NCBI RefSeq assembly: GCF_008933165.1
Contig: NZ_WBVQ01000001.1
Location: 248,001-312,000, forward strand
Direction of reading: 5' to 3'
Origin: Phaeocystidibacter marisrubri
Lineage (GTDB): Bacteria; Bacteroidota; Bacteroidia; Flavobacteriales; Schleiferiaceae
DNA: 64,000 nucleotides
The position numbers were made by a program, and so were the translations under genes. Shown in pieces: positions 27,710 through 32,993 of the stretch; the first letter of the stretch is position 1, and each line of letters starts with the position of its first letter. The notes below the pieces were generated by a model that saw only the letters and a list, made by a program, of their open reading frames with translations, was not told where the DNA came from and did no database searches.

Positions 27710-27778
27710 GTCATACTTGATATTGTCTCGACCTAGATAGGAGACTTATCTTTAGATATTCAAACTACTTTGATTTAT

Positions 27779-27817
27779 AACAGCCATTGGATGAAGTTCC
27801 AGTGGCTGTTTTGTTTT
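27779..27817 (+). terminator. Intrinsic terminator after purL
   Basis: AACAGCCA (27779-27786) pairs with TGGCTGTT (27803-27810); the inner GGA/TCC may extend the stem. It is followed by TTGTTTT. Confidence 0.8.
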
Positions 27818-27830
27818 GCATTCTCTGGAG

Positions 27831-27986
27831 TCAACTACCTATAGAGGAGAGGCTGGTATTGGTTACTGTGCTTTTGTCAATTAGAATGACATCCATGGCA
27901 TTTTCCGCGGTGTCATATTCATCCTTTATTACGGTGCGTGAAGCTTGGATATAAATTATAGAAACATGGATATTCACAGTCTTCAT
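27831..27986 (-). CDS. Small reading frame, possible gene fragment (third of three)
   Basis: The ATG at 27984-27986 opens 51 codons on the minus strand, beginning MKTVNIHVSIIYIQ and containing AENAMDVILIDKSTVT. Its composition looks coding, but its first 20 codons overlap the end of the preceding fragment in another frame. It could be a short independent gene or the 3' end of a gene broken by frameshifts. No family is recognised. Confidence 0.35.
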   Translation of the reverse strand: MKTVNIHVSIIYIQASRTVIKDEYDTAENAMDVILIDKSTVTNTSLSSIGS

Positions 27987-28152
27987 TGTATTCTTTAACG
28001 ACCCAATATTCTTTCGCCAATCCGCATTCCTTCCGCTTCTCGTGAATTGACATTAACTTAATCAGCGACGGGATAGACTGCTCCCTAAGAGGATTTATTT
28101 CAACAAACTGCTTGTTCAGTTCTTTTGGAGAACGACTTGATGACCATGCTCT
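27919..28152 (-). pseudogene. Open frame without a good start (second of three fragments)
   Basis: This 77-codon open stretch looks coding (KELNKQFVEINPLREQSIPS, then HEKRKECGLAKEYWVV, then DCEYPCFYNLYPSF) but has no ATG until codon 34 (28053). It overlaps the end of the preceding fragment, whose frame it would continue after a -1 shift near 28120-28130. The Cys spacing continues that of the first fragment. It is best read as the middle of a frameshifted or decaying gene. No family recognised. Confidence 0.4.
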
Positions 28153-28406
28153 TCACATGAATAATCATAGTGGATAATGGCAGTGGTCTGCATGCCTGTG
28201 TCTCTCCATCCCCAAGCACATTTTATCGGGCAAATCAGCCAGTGAAAGTTGCGCTCTTCATTCACGGGTTTGTAATCCTGACAACTACAACCTTCGTCAC
28301 TTACATCATTACCGCCTAGCCATTTAGGCCAAGCCCCCATGGATTGCATACCAACTCCAGCGATTATACCACCAAGAGCCGTGCTCATGATTAAGGTCCC
28401 AGCCAA
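28116..28406 (-). pseudogene. Small Cys-containing membrane-type protein, probably 5' part of a broken gene
   Basis: The 96 codons from a TTG at 28406 begin with a hydrophobic Gly-rich segment (TALGGIIAGVGMQSMGAW) followed by a Cys- and Trp-rich part (EGCSCQDY, WLICPIKCAWGW, YDYSCEEHGHQV). The open frame extends about 19 codons further upstream (basic, RKLINAFNSKARVGRG) without an ATG, so the true start is missing or uses a rare codon. The stop at 28116 falls where a -1 shift would lead into the next fragment. Composition differs from flanking genes. It may be a relic of transferred DNA. No family recognised. Confidence 0.45.
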
Positions 28407-28440
28407 CCCGCGACCTACCCTTGCTTTCGAATTGAATGCG

Positions 28441-28783
28441 TTTATCAGTTTTCTTATAGTGATATATTTTAGCTAATGGTTTAAAATTAAACAACTATGC
28501 AGTAATATTCATTTTATTTCACACATATATTCTGAAATCGTTTTATTGAGTTGTCTTCAAAAAATGGACGTATTAGACGTCTTGAATACTCTTGGGGGCT
28601 TAAGTAGCTATGACAGCTCCGTTCTCAAGAACAGCGGTTAAATGAACACATTGTCGCTGGAACAATTGCTCTTACAGCGATCGAGATCACATCCATCAAT
28701 TATCCGCTAGCCAGCTAGTATGTTTTTACGAACCACTGCGAGCATAAAGCGAGGTCATTTTTACTCGACGAGATAGAGGAAAA
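28441..28783 (+). other. AT-rich stretch without a recognisable gene
   Basis: This part is notably AT-rich up to about 28560. It holds only two tiny plus-strand frames (25 codons from 28563 and 22 codons from about 28640) that show no supporting signals. I see no RNA gene, insertion sequence end or clear repeat in it. Confidence 0.5.
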
Positions 28784-28784
28784 G

Positions 28785-28819
28785 AAAAAGCCCTCCGATG
28801 TAAATCGGAGGGCTTTTTT
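28785..28819 (-). terminator. Strong terminator at the 3' end of the structured RNA
   Basis: AGCCCTCCGAT (28789-28799) pairs perfectly with ATCGGAGGGCT (28804-28814) around a 4-nt loop, flanked by A5 and T6. It can act in both directions; on the minus strand it ends the candidate RNA. Confidence 0.88.
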
Positions 28820-29020
28820 GTGCGAATACGTATGCCAAACCCAGAGCCACCTATCTCTCTGGGTTCTGTCCGGTACCCCCCAATGATAGTCAATCAAAGT
28901 GTATCGGAGCCTAAGAGAGAGTTTAGAGTTTACCTCTGTTCCTTTCTAGTACATGACGAATTTGGTCATGCATGAGAGAGTAGGAGATTGAGAAAAGAAC
29001 GAGGCGTTTCGTATTCGCAC
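28820..29020 (-). ncRNA. Candidate structured small RNA, about 200 nt
   Basis: No protein frame fits here. The two ends are complementary: GTGCGAATACG at the 5' end (29010-29020 on the plus strand, complemented) pairs with CGTATTCGCAC at the 3' end (28820-28830), with GCC/GGC extending the stem after a small bulge. Inside are hairpins ACCCAGAG/CTCTGGGT near the 3' side and GCATGAC/GTCATGT near the 5' side, and a longer imperfect pairing TCCGATAC/GTACCGGA. A -7-like box ends 3 nt before the 5' end and an intrinsic terminator follows at once. Length, closing stem and isolated unit recall 6S RNA, but I cannot match conserved 6S positions, so the family is left open. Confidence 0.65.
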
Positions 29021-29023
29021 ATT

Positions 29024-29031
29024 CAAATATG
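29024..29031 (-). promoter_or_regulatory. -7-like box for the structured RNA
   Basis: On the minus strand this reads CATATTTG, one base off TAnnTTTG, and ends 3 nt before the predicted RNA 5' end. No -33 TTG at the normal distance. Confidence 0.4.
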
Positions 29032-29061
29032 ATAATCCAAAATGAGAGCGTGTTGGATTAT
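29032..29061. repeat. 9-bp perfect inverted repeat between the LytTR gene and the structured RNA
   Basis: ATAATCCAA (29032-29040) and TTGGATTAT (29053-29061) are separated by 12 bp, with TTTT following on the plus strand. It abuts the -7 box of the RNA and could be an operator, or a weak terminator for rightward or leftward transcription. Confidence 0.5.
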
Positions 29062-29103
29062 TTTACCAACTGCATGTTTCAATTTATAAACTGCATTTAA
29101 TCC

Positions 29104-29832
29104 TTAAAGAAGTCGTTTTGCCGCCTCCGACTTATGCGTTCTTGAAACTTCTAGGGCTCTTCCATCGGTCATGGTCACGCTCGCTTGCATGCCTTTTTCG
29201 TAATTCACTACATGAGCGGTATTGATGATGTACTTCTTGTGGCATCGCATGAATGCGTAATCTTGAATGAGTTCGCCAAAATGTCCTATGGACTTGGAGG
29301 CCAGAACCGTTCTGCCTTTGGTAAGGTAAATTTCGGTGTATGATCCTGAGCCAATGAGATAGAGGATGTCTTTGGTGGGATACCGAACGGTGCCTGACCG
29401 GTTCGGAATACTCAACATATGAGAGACTCCATTTCCGTTTAGATGTTCGGTAAGTTTTTGCGTGGAAAAAGTGCCACCAGAAGCAGAAATACATCGTTGA
29501 ATCGCGTTGTCTAGTGTCTGCTGGTCGTACGGTTTTAACATGTAATGCACAGCGGCATATTCAAAGGCGTCTAAGGCGTATTCATCGTATGCCGTAGTGA
29601 AAACGATCTTGAATTCAGGATTGGGAAATCGGTCTAGTACTTCAAAGCCCAGTCGTTTCTTTATTCGGATGTCCAAAAACAGGATATCCGGTTTTTCGAA
29701 CAGGAGAATCTCTATGGCAGTGTCAACATCGGAAGCCTCTCCCACTATCTCCAATTCGTACTTTGAAGAAGAAATCAAGTTTTTCAGTAGGGCTCTTGCG
29801 TGAGGTTCGTCATCAACCAAAATGCATTTCAT
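29104..29832 (-). CDS. LytTR-family response regulator
   Basis: The 242-residue regulator has a receiver domain (1-120; acidic DDEP, phospho-acceptor Asp 54 in ILFLDIRIKK, Lys in LKPYD) and a C-terminal LytTR DNA-binding domain (about 140-242, with ILYLIGSGSYTEIYLTKG and MRCHKKYIINTAHV). It lies 20 bp downstream of the sensor kinase gene, so the two form a cognate pair. Targets are unknown. Confidence 0.95.
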   Translation of the reverse strand: MKCILVDDEPHARALLKNLISSSKYELEIVGEASDVDTAIEILLFEKPDILFLDIRIKKRLGFEVLDRFPNPEFKIVFTTAYDEYALDAFEYAAVHYMLKPYDQQTLDNAIQRCISASGGTFSTQKLTEHLNGNGVSHMLSIPNRSGTVRYPTKDILYLIGSGSYTEIYLTKGRTVLASKSIGHFGELIQDYAFMRCHKKYIINTAHVVNYEKGMQASVTMTDGRALEVSRTHKSEAAKRLL

Positions 29833-29852: not shown

Positions 29853-32800
29853 TTAAAGTCCGATAGTCATCACAAAGTGTGTTCCAGTATTTTCAGGGCG
29901 CAATTCGAGCTCGTACGTTTTCTCATATAGCGCTGCTAATAATTCCAACCTCTGGAGCACATTCCTCAAACCGAGGGATCCCTTGTTTGAAATGCCTTGC
30001 TTCATCGCTCGCCATTCTGAGAGAGGGAATCCATCTCCGTTATCGGTGATGTGAATTTCTATCGTATTTAATTGTCGTTTGATTATGAGTTTAACGATGC
30101 CTCTATTGGTTTTGTTACTTACTCCATGCCAAACTGCATTTTCTAGTAAAGGTTGGATGAGCATGGGAGGCACAAAAGTGGTTTTCGTATTGATGTCTGA
30201 ATCGATCTCTATGATGAAATCGAAACAATCCTCCAGTCGGAGTAACTCAATACTCATGAACTCATCGAGATATTGAATTTCCTCTTCCAGAGAAACGCGG
30301 TGTAAGTCGGGTCTGCTGATGGTTTTTCGTATCAGTACGGCGAGTCGTTTTAAGTACTCAGAAGCAGTGCTGTTTCGGTTGCTGTTGATGAGGTACTGAA
30401 TGGAGTTAAAAGCATTGAAAATGAAATGCGGATTGATTTGCATCTTCAAGGTGGCCATATTGGATTCAATGAGCTGCTTATCTTGCTTTTTTCGCCTTTC
30501 GTTTACGATAATAGCGATGGCGAGAATGATGAGTAGAGGGGAGGTCAACAGGGTCCAGAACCACCATGTGTCAGTTATAAAAGGGCGAATTTGGAAAGTG
30601 AAGATGGATTGAATGTTGCTCCAGACGCCATACTCACTGCGTAATTGGACTTCAAGATTGTAGCTTCCATAGCGCAGATTTGAGAAACTGAGATCGCCAG
30701 ATTCATCGTATTCCCATGGGGCGTCAGGCGTTAATCTCCATCGCAGCAATTGACCCCGATTTTGAACGGAATTGGCGGATAGGATTTTAACGGAGATATA
30801 CGCTGTCCCTCGATTAAGGTTGAGGTGATTGTTTTCATCTAATGCAGCCTCGATTCCATTTACCCGTAGATTGGAGTAGTTCAATTGAACGTCATCTGGC
30901 AGATTCATAATGTACTCCAAAGGTGCCTTTAGCACTTGATTTCCATGGAAGACGAAGATGCTCGTATCTCCTGGAATTATCTCTCGAATGGAATTTTCTG
31001 CAACATAGTCGTGTAGCGGAAGAATTCTACAATAGGCAATTTCGTTTCCCTTCATTACCAAGACGAATAGACTCTTCTCGGATGCGGTAATAAGCACGTT
31101 TTTATAGGTGCTTACGGAGATGGTATAGTCGCTGGGTAAATAGTTTTGAGCCGTTAAGTGGATGGTGGTATCTGCACCTAACAGATAGATTCCATCGTTA
31201 TAGGAAGGCAGTACTAACCAATCTGCGCCTAACTTGTAGAGTTGTGATGTCTTGATGCTATTTTGAAGCTCTTCGTTGAGCAGTGGCAAATAGCTAGAGT
31301 TCGTTTTTCTGTAGAGGTTTCGTTCAGTTAAGACGTAATCGATACTATCGTTGGATAGTGAAAAATCAATGATGAATGAAGAGTCGCTTGGAATGGAAAC
31401 TTCCTCTGTGAAAACATGTTGGGTATCGACAGAGAATAATTTTCCTTCATTTAGTACATAATACTTAGTCCAATCTGAATTAGCGGTGCTTTTAGTTAGG
31501 AATGAAGTGCCCAAAAAGGGAAAAGATTTTTCTCTTCCCGCAGGGAAAATAGACCAAATTCGATGGTGCTCAGGGTGTGTGATAGAAGTGGTAAGAAACA
31601 GGTCGTTCAGTACGCTGTCTTGCCAATGAGATCGATGAAATCGGCTGTTTACGATAGGTCGATACGGAATTGGTACTTTCTTGACTATAGATAAGTCGGA
31701 GGACGTTAATTGCAGACTGTAGATGGTGTCTGAAACAGCTGCGTAAAAGAGCCCATTGTAATAATGAAAAGGTCGAGTGAGCCGATTAGGGAAAGTTAAA
31801 TCTTGGACTTCATAATTCGTCAAATTGATGTTTGGAATGATTCTCAGTCCTTCATTAATGTCGCAAATCCAATAGTATCCCGACTTCGTCTTATAGATGT
31901 CAGAGATGCTTTGGTTGTCAAAAAAATGCCCCGTCTGAACGAGCTCTCCACCTTTCAGAGCATAGCGAGTAATTCCATCCGACAGTGTGCAGCAATAGAG
32001 TTCGTTGTCAATAACCCGAAAGGCTACGTGGTCACAGAATAAGATGGGAGCAGCCTTGATATCCCCATTCTCGAGTATTTCAAAAAGGGTGTGCTGGGTG
32101 GTGATAAAATGACGTTCAACGCCACTAGAGTCTAGTTGATCAACCAAAGAAATCCGACTCCGTCTTGGGGGAGGTTCTGAATCACAGAGCTTCTTTAGGT
32201 CGCTGTGATTCATGTACCTAATCTTCAATTTTTCACCCCACGCAGAAACAAACGAGGTGTCTATTCTTCGGTTCGAATCGTTTAGATTTTTGAATCCAAC
32301 TGTTCGGGAGATGTATCGATCTAGTCCCCCCATCATTAAGTGAAAGATATCTTTCCCGTCTCTCTCAATAATGGCCGGTGTAACCCGAAACCTCTCTTCT
32401 ACAATTGGTGTATGGATTTCAATTTTGTCATCCGTAAAGCTGCACGTAGCAAAGGATAAGTCATTTGCATACAAGTCGAATATGAGGTGATTTCCATCCT
32501 CGGACACCCACATGTAGTATACGAAGTGGCTTCGAGGTGTTTTTTTGTTCAAGTCGTCGTTAAACGGAGGGGCAACCCAAACCCCTTTGTCTAGATAAAA
32601 GACTCCAGATGAGGCGGTTAATGCCCAAATTCGTCCAATGGGATCGACGTGTAAATTGTAAATAGTAGAAAGTTCGCCGTTCGAACTTTTGTCAAGCGGA
32701 ATCACTTTGGATCCATACATGGCAAAGGCACCTTGCTCCGTACAGACGTATTTAACGCCAATGGAGTCCTCAACCACGTGGTATACTTCACGAGCTGGAA

Positions 32801-32993
32801 GTTGTTGTGTGGACTGATCCATCCACGGTTGTTGTCCTCTTACCGCCGTGCTGAACAGAATGATGACGAAGCCGATGCTAAAAAGGGAATACGAGGAGAG
32901 GTAGAATGATGATGCCTTGGAAAACAAGGCCTTCATTTGAAAATTGGAAGTAGTAAGTCTCCTCATGAGAGTCATGTTTCGTAGCACTCTCAA
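29853..32993 (-). CDS. Sensor histidine kinase with periplasmic beta-propeller (LytS/YehU type)
   Basis: The product of up to 1046 residues has an N-terminal hydrophobic signal/anchor (about 27-53), a long periplasmic region of propeller-like beta repeats (about 55-720), a Y_Y_Y-like immunoglobulin-type domain (about 720-800), a transmembrane helix (about 805-830), and a His_kinase domain with His 856 in INPHFIFNAFNSIQ. An HATPase region with LLENAVWHGV and ITDNGDGFPL follows. Such sensors often detect glycans or envelope state in Bacteroidota, but the ligand here is unknown. An ATG at 32936 would give a more usual signal sequence. It is 20 bp after the deacetylase-like gene. Confidence 0.92.
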   Translation of the reverse strand: MRVLRNMTLMRRLTTSNFQMKALFSKASSFYLSSYSLFSIGFVIILFSTAVRGQQPWMDQSTQQLPAREVYHVVEDSIGVKYVCTEQGAFAMYGSKVIPLDKSSNGELSTIYNLHVDPIGRIWALTASSGVFYLDKGVWVAPPFNDDLNKKTPRSHFVYYMWVSEDGNHLIFDLYANDLSFATCSFTDDKIEIHTPIVEERFRVTPAIIERDGKDIFHLMMGGLDRYISRTVGFKNLNDSNRRIDTSFVSAWGEKLKIRYMNHSDLKKLCDSEPPPRRSRISLVDQLDSSGVERHFITTQHTLFEILENGDIKAAPILFCDHVAFRVIDNELYCCTLSDGITRYALKGGELVQTGHFFDNQSISDIYKTKSGYYWICDINEGLRIIPNINLTNYEVQDLTFPNRLTRPFHYYNGLFYAAVSDTIYSLQLTSSDLSIVKKVPIPYRPIVNSRFHRSHWQDSVLNDLFLTTSITHPEHHRIWSIFPAGREKSFPFLGTSFLTKSTANSDWTKYYVLNEGKLFSVDTQHVFTEEVSIPSDSSFIIDFSLSNDSIDYVLTERNLYRKTNSSYLPLLNEELQNSIKTSQLYKLGADWLVLPSYNDGIYLLGADTTIHLTAQNYLPSDYTISVSTYKNVLITASEKSLFVLVMKGNEIAYCRILPLHDYVAENSIREIIPGDTSIFVFHGNQVLKAPLEYIMNLPDDVQLNYSNLRVNGIEAALDENNHLNLNRGTAYISVKILSANSVQNRGQLLRWRLTPDAPWEYDESGDLSFSNLRYGSYNLEVQLRSEYGVWSNIQSIFTFQIRPFITDTWWFWTLLTSPLLIILAIAIIVNERRKKQDKQLIESNMATLKMQINPHFIFNAFNSIQYLINSNRNSTASEYLKRLAVLIRKTISRPDLHRVSLEEEIQYLDEFMSIELLRLEDCFDFIIEIDSDINTKTTFVPPMLIQPLLENAVWHGVSNKTNRGIVKLIIKRQLNTIEIHITDNGDGFPLSEWRAMKQGISNKGSLGLRNVLQRLELLAALYEKTYELELRPENTGTHFVMTIGL

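Follow-up and report, generated by a model that had tools for sequence, protein, structure and literature searches.

The locus and its folded RNA

The window, a 64,000-nucleotide stretch of the Phaeocystidibacter marisrubri genome, carries on its minus strand a two-component system and, directly downstream of it, a folded RNA of about 200 nt. The response regulator gene (29104-29832), presumed to encode the activator of the RNA, specifies a receiver and a LytTR DNA-binding domain (PF00072 and PF04397, both above cut-off). Behind it, in the same direction, lies a sensor histidine kinase gene (29853-32993, start codon uncertain), whose product matched His_kinase above cut-off, with scores for Y_Y_Y and HATPase_c that stayed below the respective cut-offs. 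The stop codon of the regulator gene is about 85 nt upstream of the RNA, on the same strand. The RNA extends from about 29019 to 28822, that is, from the predicted start to the point where a conserved closing stem ends, as delimited by the fold, by the corresponding elements of congeners and by a published rule for transcription starts (PMC6847099), and a terminator hairpin follows at 28786-28820. The same element lies between purL, on the plus strand, and the orthologous response-regulator gene, on the minus strand, in both other species of the genus that were examined (G001, locus L009, 1218-1397; G002, locus L010, 1266-1404), so that the alignment of relatives proposed in an earlier note on this DNA found the element kept in both.

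The earlier note gave no strand; we place the RNA on the minus strand because the position of the promoter and synteny put it there. The minus strand folded with a minimum free energy of -93.2 kcal/mol against -56.1 +/- 4.1 kcal/mol in 200 shuffles, none of which equalled it (z -9.0, computed on a stretch that takes in the terminator hairpin). The plus strand of the same region gave a weaker z of -5.1, and is foldable as well because inverted repeats are present, as expected. An RNA on the plus strand was rejected given this weaker fold and given that the purL stop codon and the terminator come shortly before the element in G001 and G002, which therefore leaves little room for a plus-strand promoter. 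The terminator, claimed earlier to be perfect, does have its hairpin and a T-run, but is near perfect rather than perfect, and it is bidirectional; plus-strand transcripts could therefore use it too. We regard it as almost certain that the RNA is real and conserved, and its transcription from the minus strand with a promoter of its own, as deduced from the arrangement of the locus, as very probable.

On the minus strand, the ends of the RNA pair over 12 bp, TGTGCGAATACG (29021-29010) with CGTATTCGCACA (28830-28819), which agrees with the complementary ends of at least 11 bp claimed in the earlier note; the 12 bp are counted in the DNA, and the transcript may start at the third base. Within this closing stem (P1), the fold prediction gives a closed multi-branch junction with several arms, matching the internal hairpins claimed previously. 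Predicted folds of the three species place first the arm P2 (28933-29005), which is variable and very different in length between species, then the C/U-rich stretch ACUCUCUCUYAG (28911-28922), identical in all three species, which lies in the loop of a weak hairpin in the folds of the window and of G002 and is partly paired in G001. The arm P3 (28869-28908) has a conserved basal stem and a variable inner part. The arm P4 (28838-28865) has a 9-bp stem made of standard pairs only in all three species and carries the loop AUAGGUGG (28847-28854), also identical in the three and followed by CAUA in the shared P4 element. The unpaired probability of this loop was 0.76-1.0 in the window, with minima of 0.49 (middle U) and 0.51 (first A) in G001.

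Measured from stem to stem, the RNAs of the window, G001 and G002 are 197, 180 and 139 nt long. All three have the closing stem, P2, ACUCUCUCUYAG, P3, P4 with its AUAGGUGG loop, the -7 box and the terminator, and the two congener RNAs folded with z values of -5.0 and -4.2 against shuffles. An 8-bp core of P1 is kept in the three species with two of its eight pairs changed on both sides, and two of the nine pairs of P4 are likewise changed on both sides. This gives four double-sided changes among 17 pairs and no broken pair, a count that covers P1 and P4, leaves out P3 and depends on a register chosen by hand. An automatic covariance count on alignment A5 found no excess (one two-sided pair against a shuffle mean of 1.0), which we attribute to mis-registration of A5 in P1 and P4. 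The compensatory changes in the closing stem that the earlier note had looked to for support are thus present by the hand count and do not exceed expectation in the automatic one, and with three sequences the covariation case for the RNA appears modest.

The region of the RNA contains short open reading frames only, and a comparison of the frames inside the RNA across the three species found none conserved. A protein-coding role was rejected: the stretch TLSQFSV, encoded by the C/U motif, is common to G001 and G002, but the window has a stop codon there. By sequence, the complete transcription unit without a protein described earlier holds, and the conserved protein frame that the earlier note had named as an argument against its reading was not found across the three species.

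In the window, about 1.07 kb (27710-28785) with short open reading frames only separates purL from the terminator; two of these frames were tested against Pfam and gave no match. In G001 and G002, the purL stop codon is only tens of bases from the terminator. The gap in the window is possibly an insertion or the remains of decayed genes.

Known RNA families and distribution

Rfam 15 returned no match at gathering score in the window or in the two congener loci (L040 and L041). The best sub-threshold match was His_leader (E 0.0023, 31.1 of 49 bits), with an alignment that rests on P4 and the terminator. The architecture had also been likened to 6S RNA, and size, closing stem and phylum do fit 6S-Flavo (RF01685) and Bacteroidales-1 (RF01693). 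However, the covariance search that the earlier note had suggested returned no 6S family at the element even at E 10, with 6S models absent from the 37 matches obtained up to that value in 28750-29110. Instead of the single rod with a central promoter-like bubble that characterizes 6S RNA, a multi-branch fold without such a bubble was predicted in all three species. Furthermore, the same genome has a 6S candidate of its own elsewhere, at C1:1403654-1403795, adjoining rny (RNase Y), although its scores stayed below the cut-offs of both 6S-Flavo (37.4 bits, cut-off 85) and Bacteroidales-1 (33.6 bits, cut-off 60). On these three grounds, a 6S identity was rejected. RNase P was rejected as well, since RF00010 matched above cut-off at one other place in each of the three genus genomes and not at the element.

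The 6S candidate itself (locus L006, 1473-1662) is probably a divergent 6S RNA that is poorly covered by the 6S-Flavo and Bacteroidales-1 models. On its other side we recognized by eye a zapA-like frame, for which NCBIfam gave no confirmation.

A DNA search of 99 genomes matched the own copy alone. With R1, a covariance model built on the 3' half of the RNA, 88 genomes of the family yielded three strong matches (83-103 bits), all of the genus Phaeocystidibacter, and four weak ones (18-23 bits, E 0.04-0.83) in G045, G003, G115 and a second place of G001; those in G045, G003 and G115 were set aside by eye. Among 393 genomes of the order, R1 found the three strong matches of this genus and the weak G045 match (E 0.04), in a search run with stricter filters, which lose weak matches. 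Eighty fetched loci (53 of regulators and 27 of purL) gave no R1 match at E up to 1, a search that left out 80 named loci, L080-L159. A search of 56 genomes gave a purL match in 47, and 30 of the loci were taken for inspection; in the 27 outside the genus, no such RNA was seen by eye in the first 500 nt behind purL, a reading that would miss an RNA 1 kb off, as in the window, and the R1 search covered these 27 loci whole. No homologs were found in viral contigs, and relatives of the regulator in named genome contigs reached at most 35 % identity among the best 80 listed. Given that no new strong match appeared in the 88 family and 393 order genomes, the RNA is confined to the genus as far as tested. 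Its conservation within the genus, the compensatory stem changes counted by hand and the absence of an Rfam match at gathering score agree with the suggestion of the earlier note that it may be a new family, and we interpret the RNA as real and as representing a new, genus-level RNA family.

Two loci from another genus of the family (L074 and L075) have, as judged by eye, an RNase P-like RNA shortly behind purL, so this spot may host structured RNAs more than once.

The predicted promoter and its upstream direct repeat

The -7-like box that had been claimed near the 5' end is there: CATATTTG (29024-29031) is separated by 2 nt from the start of the 12-bp stem and differs by one letter from TAnnTTTG, the Bacteroidetes -7 element (PMC6847099). 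Its counterparts are CATATTCG in G001 and GATATTCG in G002, and none of the three is a perfect TAnnTTTG. The box lies 5 nt from a conserved GCG of the stem, and no clear -33 box was seen by eye in the window. In Flavobacterium johnsoniae, the last G of the -7 box is described as position -5 (PMC6847099); taking it as such here sets +1 at 29019.

Upstream of this box, the window and G001 have the direct repeat TGCAGTT-N14-TGCAGTT, with a period of 21, and G002 has a version two letters off. In the window, sequence comparison places the distal half at 29089-29095, the proximal half at 29068-29074 and the whole site at 29068-29095, and a constant 43 nt separates the start of the proximal half from the -7 box in all three species. 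Conservation in an ungapped three-way comparison is concentrated in these parts: invariant columns number 20 of 28 within the site, 5 of the 9 that follow it and 6 of 8 in the -7 box, against 6 of the 63 on the far side of the site, 2 of the 27 spacer columns and none of the 5 behind the box. Counted back from the first base of the stem GCG, the key G of the proximal half is 52 nt away in each species and that of the distal half 73 nt, which corresponds to -51 and -72 if +1 is 29019; in the distal half of G002, C takes the place of this G.

A LytTR half site comprises 9 bp. LytTR proteins are described as binding pairs of direct repeats that are mostly 12 bp apart (PMC6193735), and with 9-bp halves this spacing amounts to a period of 21. 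Judged by its spacing, the direct repeat has the geometry of LytTR binding sites, which is the main clue to function and was absent from the earlier note.

Searched genome-wide with up to two mismatches, the loose pattern TGCAGTT-N14-TGCAGTT does not stand out from its reversed control in the three genomes (55 against 43 places in the own genome, G000; 36 against 50 in G001; 49 against 28 in G002). A scan of the window with up to three mismatches gave 13 matches, one of them exact, against 6.7 expected. A refined 28-letter pattern with up to three mismatches was found at seven places in the three genomes, four of them exact, against one for the reversed control. Leaving the RNA promoter aside, the pattern was absent from G001 and matched G002 once, at three mismatches, so that no target other than the RNA promoter was seen in all of the three genomes.

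The fourth exact place lies in the own genome at C1:1187512-1187539 (locus L164, 1501-1528) and has a perfect TACCTTTG downstream at the same distance of 43 nt. Its zero-mismatch match was not blind, as the refined pattern had been drawn up with the site already known and leaves two positions unspecified; judged against the strict consensus of the three species, the site has one mismatch. Between 42 and 44 of 77 letters are identical at this place, whereas 20,000 random placements reached no more than 37. The -7 box at 43 nt and this letter identity thus lend independent support to it as a putative fourth site. This putative promoter precedes a small gene (153 aa from its ATG, no Pfam match) and an alpha/beta hydrolase gene.

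The regulator ortholog scored 439-447 bits in all three genus genomes and at most 189 bits elsewhere among the 393 genomes of the order, so that ortholog and RNA, each searched for in these 393 genomes, were found in the same three. Features expected of an effector sRNA of a LytTR system are present at the locus: neighbouring LytTR regulator and kinase genes, a direct repeat with a period of about 21 upstream of the RNA promoter and, as read from the sequence, a conserved non-coding RNA with its own promoter and terminator. We consider activation of the RNA by the neighbouring LytTR regulator probable.

In 13 of 107 other regulator loci, the regulator is followed by a stretch of at least 250 nt that contains no 70-residue frame. 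Of the 40 loci with the longest gaps that were listed, five contain a 7-letter sequence repeated exactly at a distance of 21 or 22 bp, and none of these repeats resembles TGCAGTT. In one locus of a Pedobacter sp. MAG (L120), 1200 nt without a frame of at least 70 residues follow a LytTR-type regulator and could hold an RNA gene.

A proposed circuit, its alternatives and known counterparts

The reading that we favour, and hold to be fairly likely, is that of a genus-specific small regulatory RNA that is the output of the two-component system directly upstream. Upon a signal, the kinase would phosphorylate the LytTR response regulator, which would bind the repeat at 29068-29095 and help RNA polymerase initiate at the -7 box (29024-29031). 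An RNA of about 200 nt, ending at 28786-28820, would be made, with its long closing stem holding the arms and probably protecting the molecule. The conserved and mostly unpaired ACUCUCUCUYAG and AUAGGUGG would then pair with target mRNAs in trans, a mode of action that we consider somewhat favoured. The proposed steps from regulator to repeat to RNA are based on geometry and conservation, and the earlier ones on domain knowledge. The RNA itself seems solid and its link to the regulator likely.

No clear target emerged from duplex energies between the RNA and the leader behind the fourth site, compared with 51 leaders of the window (ATG frames of at least 150 aa, of presumed gene status). With the P4 loop, this leader formed a duplex of -12.0 kcal/mol, which three of the 51 window leaders equalled or bettered; with the whole RNA and with the C/U loop, 12 and 48 of the 51 did so. 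The 12-letter sequence ACTCTCTCTYAG occurs at zero, two and one further places in G000, G001 and G002, against one, three and three for its reversed control. Two of these three places fall in what are apparently counterparts of one coding gene in G001 and G002; they have the orientation of the RNA and are hence not complementary to it, and the third is in a 3' UTR.

Two sequences with complementarity to the RNA were noticed. The leader behind the fourth site (L164, 1501-1602, C1:1187512 onwards) contains CCACCUCC, partly complementary to the P4 loop. In G001, GAACTGAGAGAGAGTT (C1:131008-131023; locus L186, 1509-1524) is a 16-nt perfect complement of the C/U stretch of that species; it is part of a small hairpin just before a terminator, in the 3' UTR of a gene whose product, judged by eye, looks secreted, and may be a target, a sponge or a chance match.

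The lack of a convincing pairing target in the leader comparison would suit an RNA that binds or titrates a protein, such as an RNA chaperone, the ribosome or a regulator, with the multi-branch shape and the Shine-Dalgarno-like AUAGGUGG loop as its binding surface. The closed architecture, with the same loop on a fully paired stem in all three species, fits this too; however, the unpaired, conserved C/U-rich stretch would be typical of a pairing seed, so that we consider protein titration unlikely. Still less probable is a structured 3' UTR, or a processed tail of the kinase-regulator operon, that stabilizes or regulates that mRNA. It would explain why the RNA follows on the same strand only about 85 nt behind the regulator stop codon, but the main conserved parts of the gap are a -7 box fixed 5 nt before the stem and, at a constant distance, an activator-type repeat. 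We give equally little probability to a repeat that is the site of a different regulator or has some other role, with the RNA constitutive or otherwise controlled. Counting the regulator gene itself, the own genome has seven matches to the regulator with E values up to 1e-20, so another regulator could bind the repeat; against this stand the adjacency of RNA and regulator in all three species, their co-occurrence and the same spacing of repeat and box at the fourth site. Finally, the size of about 200 nt, closing stem, promoter-like box and terminator would also fit a 6S RNA, either divergent or an additional one, that mimics an open promoter and thereby sequesters RNA polymerase, but such an identity is highly improbable given the absence of 6S models from the 37 matches up to E 10, the below-cut-off candidate for two 6S-type models beside RNase Y and the multi-branch fold without a central bubble.

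FasA of Streptococcus pyogenes carries a LytTR domain, and RNAIII of Staphylococcus aureus is longer than the RNA described here. The closest layout to the proposed regulator-driven RNA is that of FasBCA-FasX, in which an effector RNA lies at a two-component locus with a regulator site before its promoter: FasX, a 205-nt effector RNA, is the fourth gene of the fasBCA locus, a putative site for a regulator dimer lies upstream of the fasX promoter, and the authors favour action of FasA, described as ComE-like, only at fasX (PMC12675982, PMC7602753). Similarly, the only site conserved in the three Phaeocystidibacter species is the RNA promoter. The systems differ in phylum, promoter type and RNA, with two sensor kinases there and one here, and a multi-branch shape with a closing stem is not part of the description of FasX in these sources (PMC12675982, PMC7602753). 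In AgrCA-RNAIII, the LytTR regulator AgrA likewise binds a direct repeat upstream of an effector RNA promoter, but the proximal repeat is centred near -60, the agr promoters are divergent and RNAIII encodes delta-hemolysin (PMC4227749). RgaS/RgaR-SpoZ of C. difficile and VirS/VirR-VR-RNA of C. perfringens drive a small RNA through half sites 21 bp apart, and in RgaR-driven spoZ the critical G of each half is at -51 and -72 (PMC10602386), as here if +1 is 29019 and if the same G of the motif is meant, which we assume. In contrast to the RNA promoter of Phaeocystidibacter, these Firmicutes systems are described as having sites at several other genes too (PMC10602386). Within the same phylum, Rfp18 of Flavobacterium psychrophilum is also a strongly folded, genus-conserved regulatory RNA, but its description contains no link to a regulator, and we liken it by description, not sequence (PMC9723704). 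The likeness to FasX, RNAIII, VR-RNA and SpoZ is one of layout and function, with sequence kinship checked through Rfam alone.

Bacteroidota have many LytTR systems. Our search of the open-access literature returned no LytTR-driven sRNA circuit in this phylum among the matches listed, and LytTR regulators that act via a dedicated small RNA are described in Firmicutes (agr, vir, fas and rga; PMC4227749, PMC10602386, PMC12675982, PMC7602753). Some well-studied Gram-positive bacteria control entire programmes by a single RNA of such a circuit. Few sRNAs of Bacteroidota have been described; one paper that we found speaks of a paucity of data, and we saw in it no link from a LytTR regulator to an sRNA. 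Bacteroidota mRNAs are reported to lack Shine-Dalgarno sequences naturally, with the anti-Shine-Dalgarno sequence kept (PMC6847099). We tentatively suggest, as a speculative extension of the circuit, that a two-component system of Bacteroidota may have a single closed, multi-branched RNA as its main or only conserved output, with the Shine-Dalgarno-like AUAGGUGG acting on messages or ribosomes. If true, circuits of the agr/fas kind with an RNA as effector would exist outside Firmicutes. If right, the regulator, binding site, promoter and effector RNA named together here would be jointly testable, and the site pattern would be available for finding similar circuits.
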